Positions 16,560 through 25,020 of a stretch of 64,000 nt of DNA are shown piece by piece; positions within the stretch are counted from its first letter, which is position 1, and each line of letters opens with the position of its first letter. The stretch comes from Natranaerobius thermophilus JW/NM-WN-LF (lineage in GTDB: Bacteria; Bacillota; Natranaerobiia; Natranaerobiales; Natranaerobiaceae). The notes under the pieces are model-generated. The model made no database searches. It was not told the origin of the DNA and worked only from the letters and a program-made list of their open reading frames with translations. The stretch is from contig NC_010718.1 of NCBI RefSeq assembly GCF_000020005.1, positions 1,121,001 through 1,185,000 of the forward strand, given 5' to 3'. The translations under genes and the position numbers were made by a program.

Positions 16560-18034
16560 GAGTCTGTCAAGTAATTGGTGTAAACAATCCGATTATGACC
16601 TATAGGAACAACTTAAATACAGTGAAGAAATCGAGGGAGTTTCCTGTGTGGGAAGATCATCTCCCTCGATTTTTCATTTTTGAGATTTTGTGGTAATAAG
16701 TGGGTATAGAATCCCCTGGTACTAGCTATCATCAATCAAAAAAGTTAAAAAGTTTTAAATTCTTCCTTCAAAGTAAATACTCAATTGTCCCAGAATCTGA
16801 GCCCAGTTTTTTGTTCTCATAGTCCATTTTTTAGTGATATCCATTGTAGCAAGATAAAGCATTTTTAATAAGGATTCGTCGGTAGGGAAGATACTTTTTG
16901 ATTTGGTAACTTTTCTTAATTGTCGGTTGTAGCTTTCCATAGAATTGTTTGTATAAATTAGTTTTCTAACTTCTTCTGGATATTTAAACATAACAGAGAG
17001 CTTGTCCCAATTATTTCTCCACGATCTAATGGAAATCTCATATTTATCTCCCCATTTTTCTTCGAGTTTATCTAGCTCTATTAAAGCGACTTCCTCAGTT
17101 GGGGCTCTATAAACATTCTTAAGATCACTACAGAATTCTTTTCGATCTTTGTACGATATATATCTTGTGCTATTTCTAATCTGATGAATTATGCAGCTTT
17201 GAATTTCTGTTTGCGGATAAACAGCATGTATTGCATCTTCAAACCCTTTTAAACCATCTATTGATACAATTAAAATATCTTCTACGCCTCGATTTTTTAA
17301 CTCGTTAATTATCTTCAACCAGTATTTCGAACTTTCATTTTCTCCAATCCAAATGCCCAAAACATCCTTCATGCCATCTAAATCAATTCCTATAGCCATA
17401 TAAGCTGCTTTGTTGACTATTCTACCATCTTGCCTCACTTTGTAATGGACAGCATCCATAACTACATGAGCATAGATTCTTGATAGCGGTCGGTTTTGCC
17501 ACTCCTTAATTAGAGGAACTATTTTGTCTGTAATTCCGGAAATGAGTGTAGGAGAAGCATCCACTCCATAAAGCTCTTGTAAATGAGTCTGTATATCTCT
17601 TACTGTCATGCCTTTTGCATACATGCTTAGAACCTGATCATCGATGCTTGAAACGTCTCGTTGGTTCTTTTTAACTACTTGTGGTTCAAATTCACCTTCT
17701 CGGTCTCTTGGTACTTCTATTTCTAAATTACCATAATTCGATTTGAGTTGTTTTTCTCTCTTCCCGTTTCGACTGTTGGTAGTTTCTTTTTCTCGATAAT
17801 CATACTTCGAGTAGCCTAATTCATGGTCAAGTTCGCCTTCCAGCATTTCTTCTATCAGCTCGCCAAACTGTTCCTTCAGTAAGTCTTGAATATCATTCAC
17901 ATCTTTCAACTTTCCTTCCTTCATCATTTCTCTGACTTTCTTTTTGTCAATTAAATTCATAACGGTGCAAACCTCCCATCCTTTTTTTATTATACATCAA
18001 TTCGGAAGGTTTACACCGTTTATTTTACACCCTC
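16560..18034 (-). mobile_element. Complete IS256-family insertion sequence with 8-bp target duplication
   Basis: 1475 bases flanked by direct repeats TTATTTAG at 16552-16559 and 18035-18042. The ends form an imperfect inverted repeat: left GAGTCTGTCAAGTAATTGGT, right (read inward) GAGGGTGTAAAATAAACGGT, both continuing GTAAAC..TCCGA. The single transposase gene is intact. A terminator-like hairpin (16630-16670, TCGAGGGAG / CTCCCTCGA) lies inside the left end downstream of the transposase. Confidence 0.93.
16755..17960 (-). CDS. IS256-family transposase
   Basis: 401 residues, the usual length for the mutator-type IS256 family. The DDE residues are seen in VMDAVHYKVR, SIDGLKGFEDAI and TNNSMESYNRQLRK, the last being the family's characteristic Glu context; CIIHQIRNS is another hallmark segment. 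N-terminal helices probably bind the inverted repeats. The frame is complete and the ends are intact, so the element could be mobile. ATG 17960 is preceded on the minus strand by GGGAGG. Confidence 0.96.
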   Translation of the reverse strand: MNLIDKKKVREMMKEGKLKDVNDIQDLLKEQFGELIEEMLEGELDHELGYSKYDYREKETTNSRNGKREKQLKSNYGNLEIEVPRDREGEFEPQVVKKNQRDVSSIDDQVLSMYAKGMTVRDIQTHLQELYGVDASPTLISGITDKIVPLIKEWQNRPLSRIYAHVVMDAVHYKVRQDGRIVNKAAYMAIGIDLDGMKDVLGIWIGENESSKYWLKIINELKNRGVEDILIVSIDGLKGFEDAIHAVYPQTEIQSCIIHQIRNSTRYISYKDRKEFCSDLKNVYRAPTEEVALIELDKLEEKWGDKYEISIRSWRNNWDKLSVMFKYPEEVRKLIYTNNSMESYNRQLRKVTKSKSIFPTDESLLKMLYLATMDITKKWTMRTKNWAQILGQLSIYFEGRI

Positions 18035-18175: not shown

Positions 18176-19075
18176 TTACTCTTCTTCGTCATCATTTTCG
18201 TCCTGTTCATCATTATTGCCCTCTTCTTCTTGTTGTTCTTCATCATCTTCCTGGTCATTGTCTTCGTCAGCATCGTCTTCGACATCTTCTGCGATACCTG
18301 CTTTTTCAAGGGCATCTTTGACGGCTTCTCTCCACATTTCTGAACTTTGGGTAGCACCAGTGTAAATATCTACATCCCATGTATTTTCATCCTCAAACCA
18401 ATCGGGCATAGTTTCTCTGGCTTCTTGCCAATCTTCCCAGTCATAATCGTCGTCTTTAAATTCATACTTGTCTTCTTCATCCTCCTCTTCGTCTGCAACC
18501 GTGACTTCTTCTAGTTGTACTTCAGTTATTTCCTCATCTTCTACCACAACCCAAGCAACTCCCCAACCTAAATCTTTATCTATTTCGGAAGTTCCCATAA
18601 ACGTGCCATCAAAAGTTTCTTGGCCTTCTGACTTTTGTATTGCTTTATCTACTGCTCCCATTGCTTTATTTGATGTAGTGGTAGCTTCACTGTAAGCTTC
18701 AATTTCGGAAGAATTCGCTTCAACAAATCGGTCAGGAAGTTCATCCATTGCTTCATGCCAAGGTTCCCATCCGTAATCTTCGCCTTTGGCAAGGCCTTTG
18801 TCGTTAAATTCTGTCAGTTCCACATCGGTGATTTGATCGTTTTCTAAAGTTACTTCTGCATAAACATAACCTCTATCATCAGCTTCAGAAGCTGCAGAAA
18901 ACATTCCATCTTCTCCATTAGTAGGTTCTCCTTCGTCCTCTCCATCACCAGGGGTACCATTTTTAGGTTCATCTTGGTCACCGTCATTGCAAGCTGTTAA
19001 TGTGAAAGTTGCTAATAAGGCCAGGGTGATTAACAAAAGCAAATATTTGTTTTTCCGTGAATATATTTTACGCAC
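18176..19075 (-). CDS. Lipoprotein with two FMN-binding-type domains
   Basis: 299 residues. Lipobox TLTAC puts Cys29 at the outer membrane face. Two FMN-binding-type domains follow: the first (about 58-150) ends with the altered motif YSEATTTS, the second (about 155-250) with YTGATQSS, which matches the [ST]-G-A-T motif to which ApbE attaches FMN through threonine. The first site lacks the Gly and may not be flavinylated. The C-terminus is a 45-residue acidic tail. It is transcribed away from the Rnf operon, which codes for a multi-FMN RnfG with the same motif. A role as an electron carrier outside the membrane is inferred. Start GTG 19075 with GGAGG. Confidence 0.78.
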   Translation of the reverse strand: MRKIYSRKNKYLLLLITLALLATFTLTACNDGDQDEPKNGTPGDGEDEGEPTNGEDGMFSAASEADDRGYVYAEVTLENDQITDVELTEFNDKGLAKGEDYGWEPWHEAMDELPDRFVEANSSEIEAYSEATTTSNKAMGAVDKAIQKSEGQETFDGTFMGTSEIDKDLGWGVAWVVVEDEEITEVQLEEVTVADEEEDEEDKYEFKDDDYDWEDWQEARETMPDWFEDENTWDVDIYTGATQSSEMWREAVKDALEKAGIAEDVEDDADEDNDQEDDEEQQEEEGNNDEQDENDDEEE

Positions 19076-19416: not shown

Positions 19417-20742
19417 ATGGCCCAGTTAACCTTTAGGGGAGGTGTGGAACCTGGTGACTATAAAAATACCGCAGACCACCCTATAGAACAGATGGCATTA
19501 CCCGACAAAGTTTATATTCCCCTAGAACAACATATCGGAGCACCTTGTGAACCTATTGTTGATGTAGGAGATAAGGTTAAAACTGGTCAAAAAATTGCAG
19601 AAAGTGAAGCTCCGGTCTCGGCACCTATTCATGCAAGTATTTCGGGGGAAGTTATAGATATTACTGAATACACCCATCCAATTGGAGAAAAAGCCAATAC
19701 AATAATAATTGAAAATGACGGAAAAGATGAATTGGATTACGAAGAAAGCGAGGGATTAGATTCCCCCGATAATATTACAGCTGATGAAATTAAAGAGAAA
19801 GTGAATGCAGCTGGAATTATTGGTATGGGCGGAGCTGCTTTCCCTACTCATATCAAAATCTCTCCAGATAAAGAAAAACCTATTGATACAGTTATCTTAA
19901 ACGGGGCTGAATGTGAACCTTATTTAACAACTGATTACAGAATGATGTTGGAAGCAGAAGATTATGTGTTGTTTGGCTTAAGAGCTATTATGAAAGCAGT
20001 TAACTGTGAAAATGGAGTTATTGCTATTGAAAATAATAAGCCCCAAGCTATCGAGAAAATGCAAAATATTGTAGCAGATGACGACAGACTACAGGTGATG
20101 ATATTTGAATCAAAGTATCCCCAGGGGGCAGAAAAACAGTTGATAAAAACGGTTACAGGAAGAGAAGTGCCTTCTGGAGGATTGCCTATGGATGTAGGAT
20201 GTATCGTAAATAATGTAGGAACAGCTGTAGCTATAGCTGAGGCTATTAAATTAAATAAACCTTCTTACGAAAGAGTTATGACAGTAACAGGTCCAGGAAT
20301 CAACCGACCAGGTAATTTTTTAGTAAGAATAGGGACACTAGCATCTCATATTATTTCTGAATGTGGTGGAGCAAAGGAAAATACAAAAAAAGTTATCATG
20401 GGCGGTCCTATGATGGGGCTGAGCCAACCGACAGTTGAGTTTCCAGTTATTAAGGGAACTTCAGGGATTTTATTATTAACAGGATCAGAGGTTAAAGTTT
20501 TTGAAGAAAAACCCTGCATTAATTGTGGCAGATGTGTAGACGATTGTCCTGCCTATTTACTTCCCAATGTAATAGCCCATTATATGGAAAATGGCAGGGT
20601 AAATGAGTCAGAAGACTATAACGCCATGGATTGCATAGAATGTGGTTGCTGTACTTATATATGCCCTGCTAACAGACCACTGGTGCATTATATTAGAATG
20701 GCCAAGGCCGATATCATGAAAAAGCGAGAAAAAGAAGGATGA
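19417..20742 (+). CDS. rnfC: Rnf complex subunit RnfC
   Basis: 441 residues. RnfC is the soluble NADH-binding subunit of the membrane complex that couples ferredoxin oxidation by NAD+ to Na+ or H+ export. The N-terminal biotinyl-lipoyl-like and SLBB-type portions (about 30-110 and 320-350) flank the flavin/NADH-binding region, which includes GIIGMGGAAFPTHIK (about 131-145) and LNGAECEPYLTTDYRMM. Two 4Fe-4S sites lie at the C-terminus: CINCGRCVDDCP and CIECGCCTYICP. First gene of rnfCDGEAB; ATG 19417 has a strong GAAGGAGG site. Confidence 0.96.
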   Translation: MAQLTFRGGVEPGDYKNTADHPIEQMALPDKVYIPLEQHIGAPCEPIVDVGDKVKTGQKIAESEAPVSAPIHASISGEVIDITEYTHPIGEKANTIIIENDGKDELDYEESEGLDSPDNITADEIKEKVNAAGIIGMGGAAFPTHIKISPDKEKPIDTVILNGAECEPYLTTDYRMMLEAEDYVLFGLRAIMKAVNCENGVIAIENNKPQAIEKMQNIVADDDRLQVMIFESKYPQGAEKQLIKTVTGREVPSGGLPMDVGCIVNNVGTAVAIAEAIKLNKPSYERVMTVTGPGINRPGNFLVRIGTLASHIISECGGAKENTKKVIMGGPMMGLSQPTVEFPVIKGTSGILLLTGSEVKVFEEKPCINCGRCVDDCPAYLLPNVIAHYMENGRVNESEDYNAMDCIECGCCTYICPANRPLVHYIRMAKADIMKKREKEG

Positions 20743-20794: not shown

Positions 20795-21742
20795 ATGAAA
20801 GAGAAACTTGTGGTGTCTTCTTCACCTCATCTCAGGTCACCAGAAACTATAGATAGTATTATGAGAGATGTGTTAATAGCTTTAATACCACCTTTTATTG
20901 TAAGCATCTGGTTATTTGGTTGGACATCTATCATTGTTGTTGCAGTGGCAACTGCAGTATCTATGATAACTGAATCTCTTATAGTCCATAAATCATTGGC
21001 TCCAAGGAAACTTAAAGGAGATTTAAGTGCTGCAGTCACAGGGGTTATTTTTGGACTGAGTTTGCCCCCTGGGACGCCCTGGTGGGTAGTAGCTTCAGGC
21101 GCTTTTGTTGCTATTTTCATTGCAAAACAGATATTTGGAGGGATTGGATATAATATTTTCAATCCCGCTTTAGTAGGTAGGGCTTTTGTAGTAGTAGCTT
21201 GGCCCTCTTATTTAACTCATTGGACAGAACCCTTTGAACCTGTTGATGCTGCTTCTAGGGCCACCCCATTGGCATTCCCGGGTATGACAGAGGGTTCACC
21301 CTTTGAAATAGTTCCCTTTACTGACTTGTTTGTAGGAACCATTGCTGGTTCACTTGGTGAAACCTCGGCTTTAGCAATTACAATTGGTGGAATATTTCTA
21401 CTAATAAGAGGACATATTGATTTCAGAGTGCCTCTCGGTTTTTTGGGTGCCTTGGCTTTAGTTGTTTCTATTGCAGGCGAAAATGCATTGTTCCATTTAG
21501 TTAGCGGTAGTGCTTTTTTTGGAGCTATTTTTATAGCCACTTGCATGGTCACCTCTCCTTATACAAAAACTGGAAAACTAATTTTTGGGATAGGTTGTGG
21601 TGCCATAACTGCCATTTTAAGGATGTACGCAGCAATTCCCGCTGGAGTAACCTATGCGGTGCTATTGATGAATGCATTAGTACCCTTTATTAATGTTTAT
21701 ACTAAACCTAGAGTCTATGGGGAGGTTAATAATAAAAAATGA
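20795..21742 (+). CDS. rnfD: Rnf complex subunit RnfD
   Basis: 315 residues, about nine to ten membrane helices. RnfD holds covalently attached FMN in the membrane. The attachment motif here is ASRATPLAFP with Thr157, where most relatives have S-G-A-T; the Gly is replaced by Arg. The sequence otherwise matches the family (GGIGYNIFNPALVGRAF, TPWWVVASG). Start at ATG 20795 has GCAGGAGG. The gene ends four bases past the start of rnfG, indicating translational coupling. Confidence 0.94.
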   Translation: MKEKLVVSSSPHLRSPETIDSIMRDVLIALIPPFIVSIWLFGWTSIIVVAVATAVSMITESLIVHKSLAPRKLKGDLSAAVTGVIFGLSLPPGTPWWVVASGAFVAIFIAKQIFGGIGYNIFNPALVGRAFVVVAWPSYLTHWTEPFEPVDAASRATPLAFPGMTEGSPFEIVPFTDLFVGTIAGSLGETSALAITIGGIFLLIRGHIDFRVPLGFLGALALVVSIAGENALFHLVSGSAFFGAIFIATCMVTSPYTKTGKLIFGIGCGAITAILRMYAAIPAGVTYAVLLMNALVPFINVYTKPRVYGEVNNKK

Positions 21743-22845
21743 AAGCATCCAACGTACTTCGTCTATCAATGATTTTAACTTTAGTTACACTTTTGGCAGC
21801 TACTGTCTTGGGTTTCTCATTTGTATATACAGAGCCTCTAATTTGGGAACAAAGGATGGAACAGTTAGAAGATGCCATGTTTAAATTCTTCCCAGAAGCT
21901 GATCAATTTGAAATAGAAGAGGTTAATGACGATGAATTTTATGTAGTAGAAAAAGATGATGAAACAATTGGAGCTGCTGCTTTAACCAATCCAAGTGGAT
22001 ATGGTGGAGAAATAGAGATGATGGTAGCAGTAGATATTGATGGTGAAATTAGAGGAATAGAAATTTTAGGCCATTCGGAAACTCCAGGATTAGGAGACAA
22101 AATTGAAAACGAAGAGTGGCAGACCCAGTTTATTGGCTTAACTGTAGTAGATGAAATTCAAATAGGTGTTGATGTAGATGTTATTTCAGGCGCCACTGTA
22201 AGTAGCCAGGGAGTAACTAGAGGAGTAGAAAAAGGGGTTGAAAAAGTTGCTATAACCTATTTTCAAAAGGATCCAGAGGAGCTTGAAGAGATTGAAGAGG
22301 CTCCAAAAGTATTAGAAGATGGAGTATTTACCGGGGAAGGCACTGGTCGTAATCCGGGAATTGAAGTGGAAGTTACTGTAGAGGAAGGGGAAATTACAGA
22401 TATTGAACTTCTTGATCATGATGAATCCGATGCATATATGGATGAAGCCTGGGAAGGAATGGTTGATAAAATAAAAGAAGCAAACTGCCCTGATGTGGAC
22501 TCGGTATCAGGTGCCACCCAGTCCAGTGTTGGTATAAAGGATGCAGTAGAAGATGCCATTGAAGAAAGAGAAGAAGAATTTGAAGATGGAGTAGCGAGAG
22601 GTGAAGGAACGGGAAGAAATCCAGGTGTTGTTGTTGAGGTGACAGTTCAGGATGGTGAAATAACCGAACTGGAACTCCTTGAACATGATGATTCTGACTC
22701 ATACATGAATCAAGCTTGGGATGATATGCGTGAAAGAATTTTAGAAGAACAGTCTACTGATGTAGATACTGTATCTGGAGCTACCCAATCAAGTGTTGGA
22801 ATTATTAACGCAGTAGAGGAAGCTTTAGAACAGGAGAGTGAATAG
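21739..22845 (+). CDS. rnfG: RnfG with three FMN-attachment domains
   Basis: 368 residues; ordinary RnfG is around 200. One membrane helix (about 9-30) anchors it. The conventional RnfG domain carries SGATVSS with Thr153. Two extra, nearly identical domains follow: about 195-275 with SGATQSS (Thr260) and about 285-365 with SGATQSS (Thr349), each opening with GEGTGRNPG. ApbE attaches FMN to the Thr of this motif, so the protein could carry three FMNs in a row outside the membrane. Overlaps the end of rnfD by four bases. Acidic linkers separate the domains. The extra domains probably arose by tandem duplication. Confidence 0.93.
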   Translation: MKASNVLRLSMILTLVTLLAATVLGFSFVYTEPLIWEQRMEQLEDAMFKFFPEADQFEIEEVNDDEFYVVEKDDETIGAAALTNPSGYGGEIEMMVAVDIDGEIRGIEILGHSETPGLGDKIENEEWQTQFIGLTVVDEIQIGVDVDVISGATVSSQGVTRGVEKGVEKVAITYFQKDPEELEEIEEAPKVLEDGVFTGEGTGRNPGIEVEVTVEEGEITDIELLDHDESDAYMDEAWEGMVDKIKEANCPDVDSVSGATQSSVGIKDAVEDAIEEREEEFEDGVARGEGTGRNPGVVVEVTVQDGEITELELLEHDDSDSYMNQAWDDMRERILEEQSTDVDTVSGATQSSVGIINAVEEALEQESE

Positions 22846-22846
22846 A

Positions 22847-23464
22847 ATGAATTTTAGTCAGGCATTAGCCCAAGGGATATTAAGAGAAAATGGTTTGTAC
22901 CGGCAATTGCTGGGGCTTTGTCCTGCCCTGGCAGTTACCGGTACTGCTATTAACAGCTTAGGCATGGGAGTTGCCACTTTATCAGTTTTAGTGGCTTCAA
23001 ATATTGTTATATCTCTTATACGTAATCTGATTCCTCAGAAAATTAGAATTCCAGCTTATATAGTTATCATAGCCACTTTTGTAACCCTGGTTGATATGGT
23101 CTTAGAAGCTTTTAATCCAGAGCTCCATTCTGCTTTAGGTATTTTTATCCCCTTGATTGTAACTAATTGTTTGATATTAGGAAGGGCTGAAGCCTTTGCT
23201 TCCCGAGAAGAAATTGTACCTTCCATTGGCGATGGACTCGGTATGGGGCTTGGCTTTACCCTGGCACTTCTTTCTGTAGGTGTAGTGCGAGAACTTTTAG
23301 GAATGGGAAGTATTTTTGGGTGGCCGGTGATGGATCAGTTATTTGGATTGTTTGGGGCAGAATTTCAACCAGTTTTGATATTTGTCCAACCTGCTGGAGC
23401 TTTTTTTGCCCTGGGGCTATTATTGGCAGTAATGAATTTGTATTTTAGAAAAATTTCTGTGTAA
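22847..23464 (+). CDS. rnfE: Rnf complex subunit RnfE
   Basis: About 205 residues, six membrane helices, one of the paired half-barrel subunits (with RnfA) that form the membrane electron path and ion channel. Typical segments: LGLCPALAVTGTAINSLGMG, LGIFIPLIVTNCLILGRAEAF and DGLGMGLGFTLAL. The Cys residues in LCPAL and TNCLI are the conserved iron-sulfur ligands inside the membrane known for RnfA/E. ATG 22847 is preferred to the in-frame GTG 22838 because AGGAGAGTGA lies at the proper distance from it. Confidence 0.95.
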   Translation: MNFSQALAQGILRENGLYRQLLGLCPALAVTGTAINSLGMGVATLSVLVASNIVISLIRNLIPQKIRIPAYIVIIATFVTLVDMVLEAFNPELHSALGIFIPLIVTNCLILGRAEAFASREEIVPSIGDGLGMGLGFTLALLSVGVVRELLGMGSIFGWPVMDQLFGLFGAEFQPVLIFVQPAGAFFALGLLLAVMNLYFRKISV

Positions 23465-23539
23465 GTATGTAAACTATTTTTTTACTTGATCTTTACGAAA
23501 ACACAATAAATAAAATAAACATTGGGAAAGGGGCTTATT

Positions 23540-24118
23540 ATGATAGAGGATCTACTGGTTATCTTTTTGGGAGCAGTTCTTGTTAATAATTTTGTATTAA
23601 TAAGATTTTTAGGAATCTGTCCTTTTCTGGGAGTTTCGAAAAAAGTAGAAACAGCTTTGGGAATGGGTTTTGCTGTTACTTTTGTTATGACATTGTCATC
23701 TATAATTACATGGTTTATAGCTGAATTTATCCTCATCCCCCTGGAAGCTGAATACCTAGAGTATGTAGCTTATATTCTGGTGATTGCTTCTCTGGTACAG
23801 TTTATTGAAATGTTACTCGAAAAAGTTAGTCCGAGCTTGTATAAAGCTTTGGGAATATTTCTGCCTTTGATTACTACTAATTGTGCTATTTTAGGTTTAG
23901 TATTGATTAATATACTTGAAGATTATAATTTGTTGGAAGCTACTGTCCATGGAATTGGTGCGGGAGTTGGGTTTATTTTGGCTTTAATTTTGATGGCCGG
24001 TATCAGAGAGCGCTTGGAACTTGTTAAAATGCATGAAGTTTTTAAGGGTGCTTCAATCGCTTTTATTACCGCGGGAATTCTTGCCCTGGCTTTTTCAGGA
24101 TTTTTAGGCATAATCTAG
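23540..24118 (+). CDS. rnfA: Rnf complex subunit RnfA
   Basis: About 192 residues and six membrane helices, homologous to RnfE in opposite orientation. Conserved segments include NNFVLIRFLGICPFLGVSK, LGIFLPLITTNCAILG and GIGAGVGFILALILMAGIRE; the Cys in GICPF and TNCAI are the membrane iron-sulfur ligands. ATG 23540 has AAAGGGGC upstream; the TTG 18 bases earlier overlaps that site. It is followed by rnfB after 41 bases. Confidence 0.95.
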   Translation: MIEDLLVIFLGAVLVNNFVLIRFLGICPFLGVSKKVETALGMGFAVTFVMTLSSIITWFIAEFILIPLEAEYLEYVAYILVIASLVQFIEMLLEKVSPSLYKALGIFLPLITTNCAILGLVLINILEDYNLLEATVHGIGAGVGFILALILMAGIRERLELVKMHEVFKGASIAFITAGILALAFSGFLGII

Positions 24119-24159: not shown

Positions 24160-25020
24160 ATGATTGAAGCTGTTTTAAGTTTAGGAGCTATTGCGTTTAT
24201 TTTTGGATCTGTATTAGCTTATGCCGCGGAAAAATTTAAAGTCGAGAAAGACCCACGCATAGAGGCAATTGCTGAAGTTGTGCCGGGTGCTAATTGCGGT
24301 GCCTGTGGGTATCCAGGTTGTGAAGCTTTTGCAGAAGCTGTAGCCAGGGGAGAAGCTCCACCTGAAGGTTGTACACCTGGAGGAAAGAAGGCAGCCGAAC
24401 AGATTTCAGAGATACTGTCTAATGGAGCAGGTGAGAGCAATGAGTTTAGCACCTTGGGTTATGTGAAAGAAACCAATAAAGTGATACAGGAACCTTCTCA
24501 AAAATACATTGCAGAAGTGGCTTGCTTAGGCTCTAGAGAGTATTGTAAGGAGAAGTTTGAGTATGATGGAGTCAGAGATTGCCGGGCTGCAATGATGTAC
24601 CGAAATGGTCCAAAAGCTTGTGAATTTGGGTGTATAGGCCTAGCTACCTGTGTTGAAACATGTCCTTTTGAAGCTATTGAAATGAGAGATGACGGTCTTC
24701 CTCGTATAAACCATGATATATGCAGGGGCTGTGCCACTTGTGTAAATACATGTCCTAAGAGTGTCATAAGATTGATACCGGGAGATAGGTACAAACATTT
24801 TATATATTGTAACTCTCAAGAAACGGGAGAAATTGTAAAGGAAAACTGTCAATATGGATGTCTTGGTTGTGGTATTTGCCGTGAACAATGTCCCGTTGGT
24901 GCTATAAATTTAGATAATGATTTAGCAGTTATTGATCAAAATAAGTGTGTTAACTGTGGTTTGTGTAAAGATAAATGCCCAACAGCTTGCATTGTAAGTG
25001 AATCTGAAAGACTTCAATAA
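24160..25020 (+). CDS. rnfB: Rnf complex subunit RnfB, polyferredoxin
   Basis: 286 residues. An N-terminal membrane helix (1-22) is followed by the Fe-S motif GANCGACGYPGC, then a region with several Cys and three clear ferredoxin-like 4Fe-4S pairs: CIGLATCVETCP/CRGCATCVNTCP, CLGCGICREQCP and CVNCGLCKDKCP. RnfB accepts electrons from ferredoxin, which here would be reduced by the pyruvate:ferredoxin oxidoreductase encoded convergently at 25368. ATG 24160 with AAAAGGAG. Confidence 0.95.
   Translation: MIEAVLSLGAIAFIFGSVLAYAAEKFKVEKDPRIEAIAEVVPGANCGACGYPGCEAFAEAVARGEAPPEGCTPGGKKAAEQISEILSNGAGESNEFSTLGYVKETNKVIQEPSQKYIAEVACLGSREYCKEKFEYDGVRDCRAAMMYRNGPKACEFGCIGLATCVETCPFEAIEMRDDGLPRINHDICRGCATCVNTCPKSVIRLIPGDRYKHFIYCNSQETGEIVKENCQYGCLGCGICREQCPVGAINLDNDLAVIDQNKCVNCGLCKDKCPTACIVSESERLQ

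Follow-up and report, generated by a model that had tools for sequence, protein, structure and literature searches.

The window, a stretch of 64,000 nucleotides of Natranaerobius thermophilus DNA, contains a complete rnfCDGEAB operon. Many anaerobes conserve energy mainly through the Rnf complex, which is usually pictured as a closed loop between ferredoxin and NAD. N. thermophilus inhabits salty, alkaline hot lakes. In the window's operon, rnfG sits between rnfD and rnfE, overlapping each by a few bases, and its product carries three FMN_bind domains. The features are as follows.

18176..19075, minus strand: divergent FMN_bind lipoprotein, with an LTAC lipobox and two FMN_bind stretches
19417..20742, plus strand: rnfC (TIGR01945, 552 bits)
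20795..21742, plus strand: rnfD (TIGR01946, 299 bits), flavin site D-A-A-S-R-A-T
21739..22845, plus strand: rnfG, 368 aa, three FMN_bind domains (ORF list, Pfam, TIGR01947)
21763..21828, plus strand: N-terminal membrane anchor of RnfG, residues ~9-30 (alignment to 7zc6_G; hydrophobic stretch)
21994..22248, plus strand: domain 1, RnfG-type FMN_bind, residues 86-170 (Pfam; groups with domain 1 of other RnfGs)
22195-22197, plus strand: codon for Thr153, domain 1
22318..22569, plus strand: domain 2, free-standing-type FMN_bind, residues 194-277 (Pfam, 8p2b_A match, domain tree)
22516-22518, plus strand: codon for Thr260, domain 2
22585..22836, plus strand: domain 3, free-standing-type FMN_bind, residues 283-366 (Pfam, 8p2b_A match, domain tree)
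22783-22785, plus strand: codon for Thr349, domain 3
22838..23464, plus strand: rnfE (TIGR01948, 250 bits)
23522..24118, plus strand: rnfA (TIGR01943, 276 bits)
24160..25020, plus strand: rnfB (TIGR01944, 136 bits)

The rnfG product scores 121.2 bits against TIGR01947, the curated model for RnfG (cut-off 102), and matches, in three stretches, the FMN_bind family PF04205 (E 1.7e-49 for the whole protein). Pfam and a motif check place the flavin sites exactly where the first-pass annotation had put them in its 368-residue RnfG: the motifs DVISGAT, DSVSGAT, and DTVSGAT contain acceptor residues Thr153, Thr260, and Thr349, and each retains the leading Asp. ApbE acts on the motif D-x-x-[S/T]-G-A-[S/T], whose seven residues alone suffice for flavinylation (PMC12052999), so all three sites are canonical. 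Three covalent flavins are the most likely prediction for this protein.

Canonical RnfG proteins with a single flavin (solved structures 7zc6, 8ahx, 9eri) share with the window protein the membrane anchor, domain 1, its motif, and the position in the operon, but have no C-terminal FMN_bind extension. A single-sequence AlphaFold model of RnfG has a pLDDT of only 44, too low to build on. The FMN_bind fold has three strands and then two helices, with the flavin held between the helices; in this low-confidence model, domains 2 and 3 show the order strand-strand-strand-helix-helix. A Pfam match to YqgF fell below its own cut-off and was disregarded, and an Rfam search matched nothing near rnfG. Elsewhere in the operon, the Gly of the RnfD SGAT site is highly variable among sampled RnfDs (A, S, T, R, or Q) and the A-T pair is constant. 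A 50-base stretch of 74% identity is common to rnfE (23132-23181) and rnfA (23846-23895).

The first-pass annotation had also connected RnfG with the neighboring lipoprotein. This link is weak: one of the lipoprotein's two motifs is degenerate (EAYSEAT in its domain 1, with SEAT for SGAT; DIYTGAT in its domain 2 is intact); its domains group with those of other lipoproteins from the same genome; and in neither of the two nearest relatives do the 11 kb surrounding the rnf operon contain a further FMN_bind gene. The lipoprotein is no more than a possible partner of Rnf. Beyond its gene lies a 401-aa transposase-like ORF (16755-17960, minus strand), of the IS256 type by appearance.

Rnf loci and FMN_bind genes across the genome

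PF04205 matches at 27 places in the N. thermophilus genome. These include secreted FMN_bind proteins additional to RnfG, some with three and four motifs. One FMN_bind protein (L012:3355-5532, minus strand; 725 aa) joins Cu_amine_oxidN1 to several FMN_bind domains, a pairing shared with the "three-petaled flower" class (PMC11334425). A search for apbE, suggested by the first-pass annotation, found a single copy (C2:534749, E 6.6e-91).

Besides the window's operon, the genome has one more complete rnf operon (here L015, C2:520000-530000), in which RnfG is 177 aa long with a single motif. Their RnfC, D, E, A, and B proteins are 56-77% identical. Two further RnfG genes lie elsewhere.

L009:4565-6307 (G000:C2:675564-677306), plus strand: five-domain RnfG, 580 aa, open frame in an otherwise decayed rnf locus
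L010:5321-5878, plus strand: orphan RnfG, 185 aa, single domain, adjoining a prismane/hydroxylamine reductase (Hcp) gene

RnfGs with one, three, and five flavin domains thus coexist in this one genome. In the five-domain protein, the domain 2 motif reads SRAT. Decay of its locus is evident on both sides: upstream of rnfG, rnfD is split in two fragments; downstream, an in-frame deletion joins rnfE and rnfA into an 86-aa ORF. The 50-base repeat of the window's rnfE and rnfA corresponds to the region of this junction. Two rnfC-rnfD pairs occur without the remaining rnf genes (L024:1813-4986 and L025:2633-5883), each preceded by a multi-4Fe-4S protein and the former additionally by a molybdopterin oxidoreductase (formate-dehydrogenase-like). 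These pairs are possibly half-Rnf electron inputs.

Origin of domains 2 and 3

The relationships among individual domains were evaluated in a tree of 91 FMN_bind domains, whose finer branching is unsure because the alignment has only 82 columns. Domain 1 groups with domain 1 of other RnfGs. A branch with SH-aLRT support of 100 parts it from domains 2 and 3, which fall among the extra domains of other RnfGs and free-standing lipoprotein FMN_bind domains; on that side, they and the extra domains from the five-domain paralogue form a group. Moreover, both match 8p2b_A, domain 1 of CbFMN4 (E 1.1e-8 for domain 2, 7.7e-10 for domain 3), whose crystal structure has FMN bound covalently (PMC10339131). 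The tree grouping and the 8p2b matches together indicate that a free-standing-type FMN_bind domain joined the RnfG carboxyl terminus by fusion, and was later duplicated.

The tree rules out, in the window's clade, that the extra domains are copies of RnfG's own domain 1. Such own-domain duplication does fit another group, which includes L139 and L164 and in which the second domain is of RnfG type. A second type of long RnfG, with an RnfG-like added domain, occurs in other families (L139, L140, L141, L143, L144, and L164), and looks like a separate origin. A motif has been lost in some of this group (ITMAT in L140).

Aligned with 8p2b, domains 2 and 3 lack the flavin-stacking Tyr11 (their GTGRNPG replaces GYG--G), and Leu40 and Thr37 give way to Tyr and Ser, respectively. 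From this alignment, their flavin pocket would be similar to that of 8p2b but not identical.

Between domains 2 and 3, identity is 64% in amino acids and 68% in DNA. With silent sites close to saturation (pS 0.72), the dN/dS ratio of about 0.09 is only rough. The divergence, the saturated silent sites, and the low ratio point to an old duplication held by purifying selection, and not to a chance or assembly repeat. The first-pass annotation had named an assembly artefact as one outcome that would undo its reading. That an assembly or sequencing error doubled one domain is now a negligible prospect: the two copies differ at about a third of their bases, and related operons of other genomes have the same architecture.

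Distribution and history of multi-domain RnfG

RnfG (threshold E <= 1e-15) is present in 162 of 300 genomes drawn from the phylum. By a hand tally, about 46 of 148 RnfG frames among the matches listed are at least 270 aa long. At least two FMN_bind domains were found in 36 of 40 fetched loci, which were chosen mostly for long frames. Together with further loci, the sample includes 22 complete rnf operons, not counting the window's, with an RnfG of two to five domains; others are RnfG-like proteins without adjacent rnf genes. The first-pass annotation had called tandem fusion into RnfG "less often noted", which understates the case. It had also proposed counting motifs in homologues; related operons carry two to five, not one.

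RnfG-like proteins with two or three domains and no adjacent rnf genes occur at L129-L134, L136, L137, L142, L145-L147, L154, L157, L161, and L167. Neighbors of these stand-alone genes encode PSP1 and tetrapyrrole methylase, and, at L161, a DsbD-type membrane protein. A plasmid search returned only remote RnfGs, with alignment limited to domain 1, and a domain-1 pattern scan of named genomes returned mostly single-domain RnfGs.

For operon history, RnfC, D, E, and A of 75 operons were concatenated and a tree was built. The sample favored long RnfGs, but about 50 single-domain operons were included, only two of which fell in the window's clade. That clade comprises 19 operons (SH-aLRT 99), 17 of them with an RnfG of two to five domains, so the window RnfG is typical of its group. 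A careful tree of 32 operons reproduces the clade (support 99/99, including bootstrap 99). A topology that unites the 17 multi-domain operons to the exclusion of the two with a single domain is rejected (AU p 1.2e-6).

The simplest reading of these trees is one gain of extra domains and two losses, in L015 and L211, where the domains apparently have been lost. Most simply, then, the ancestor of this clade of Rnf complexes would already have had a multi-domain RnfG. On the same reading, the L015 RnfG with its single flavin is probably derived, by secondary loss.

This history draws support from two sides: the grouping of window domains 2 and 3 with the five-domain paralogue, and a relic in the sister genus (G001). 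There, between the rnfG stop and rnfE (L138:6200-6480), lies a dead third FMN_bind domain with stops, frameshifts, and SEAT for SGAT; the intact part of the RnfG has two domains. The sequence of this locus indicates a third domain that is being lost. A recent independent gain in the window operon was considered, and is disfavored by the operon tree, by the domains shared with the five-domain paralogue, and by the G001 relic.

Possible roles of the extra flavins

Multi-flavinylated RnfGs in RNF clusters were described by Meheust et al. in 2021, who proposed a second electron path from such RnfGs to extracytosolic acceptors (PMC8238504). Like theirs, the window RnfG belongs to an RNF cluster and has several FMN_bind domains. 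The text of that paper neither names Natranaerobius nor gives a domain history (PMC8238504); the clade, the fusion origin, and the losses were worked out here. Judged against that text, the multi-flavin RnfG and the outlet idea are already published, and the clade, the fusion origin, and the decayed loci are new. (A literature search for RnfG with tandem FMN-binding domains, so worded, found no match; the 2021 survey uses other words.)

Two other systems offer comparison. SaFMN3 and CbFMN4 also have tandem domains with ApbE motifs, and window domains 2 and 3 are homologous to CbFMN4 domain 1 (8p2b); unlike the window domains, these proteins are secreted and have no RnfG part (PMC10339131). In Methanosarcina acetivorans, the multi-haem cytochrome MmcA is necessary for AQDS reduction (PMC6703419). 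Like the proposed flavin chain, MmcA is an Rnf-associated outlet that is extracytosolic and has several cofactors. The likeness is analogy only: MmcA carries haem instead of flavin, is a separate protein, and belongs to an archaeon (PMC6703419).

Our leading reading, to which we give about an even chance, is that the extra flavin domains tethered on RnfG relay electrons between Rnf and extracytosolic partners. By homology, domain 1 (Thr153) would keep the normal RnfG role, passing electrons from the RnfA/E iron-sulphur center on to RnfD. The predicted topology would place domains 2 and 3 beyond the membrane, held by short acidic linkers and most likely flavinylated by the genome's single ApbE. 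There they may act as tethered relays between the Rnf electron pool and extracytosolic partners, in one or both directions. Candidate partners are secreted FMN proteins or small acceptors.

This outward or inward branch is favored by three observations: domains 2 and 3 are kin to secreted flavin domains, they are conserved, and the genome has many other secreted FMN proteins. Domains of the free-standing or lipoprotein type, as opposed to domain 1 copies, suit an outward partner role. Moreover, the five-domain rnfG stays open although its rnf locus has decayed. Counted against the branch, the finding that other FMN_bind domains are commoner in genomes of the multi-flavin clade is not robust, since it depends on the three Natranaerobia genomes (p 0.0095, uncorrected for kinship; p 0.067 without them). 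The extra domains also appear dispensable for Rnf, given the apparent losses and the decay in the sister genus, and domains 2 and 3 lack the flavin-stacking Tyr of 8p2b. No neighbor that might serve as acceptor is conserved beside multi-domain rnf operons in the fetched loci. On balance, an extra electron route from Rnf outward is plausible.

The same observations bear on what else domains 2 and 3 might be. They could be flavinylated yet trade electrons only with domain 1, as a nearby electron store that evens out Rnf turnover or keeps domain 1 poised, with no outward acceptor. The lack of a conserved partner adjoining the operon agrees with such a buffer, as does the three-flavin SaFMN3, whose flavins share one potential (-184 mV) with no direction built in (PMC10339131). 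We nonetheless consider a buffer fairly unlikely: the extra domains are kin of secreted and lipoprotein FMN domains, not of domain 1, and the genome encodes many other secreted FMN proteins. The domains might instead be passengers of an ancient fusion, weakly selected and drifting in copy number, in a complex that works equally well with one domain. One clade does contain RnfGs with one, two, three, four, and five domains, and the two inferred losses and the dead third domain of the sister genus also fit. Such neglect is rather improbable for domains whose dN/dS ratio is so low, whose motifs are both intact, and which 17 of 19 operons, across many families, have kept.

Loss of flavin without loss of fold is a very improbable account, in which domains 2 and 3 serve in the cell as binding or spacer modules. 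It can point to the stacking Tyr11 position of CbFMN4, not conserved in either domain, and to the one SRAT motif of the five-domain paralogue. Against this, the motifs of the window protein are canonical; the Tyr14Ala change in SaFMN3 domain 2 did not prevent flavinylation (PMC10339131); and the seven-residue motif is by itself enough for ApbE (PMC12052999).

If the tethered-relay reading holds, a conserved flavin extension on the outer Rnf subunit would give electrons an exit or entry that bypasses NAD, and therefore a cytochrome-free route to extracellular acceptors. A bolder proposal is possible, although we lean against it: that in one clade of anaerobes Rnf is ancestrally two-outlet, with a flavin chain to a secreted flavoprotein network beside the ferredoxin-NAD path, and that species and paralogues tune this outlet through gain and loss of flavin domains. 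The evolutionary trees show that multi-domain RnfG is no oddity of one genome; within a clade, Rnf usually has it. Moreover, N. thermophilus is in itself a natural comparison set: one organism with two complete Rnf operons, whose RnfGs are predicted to carry one flavin and three.
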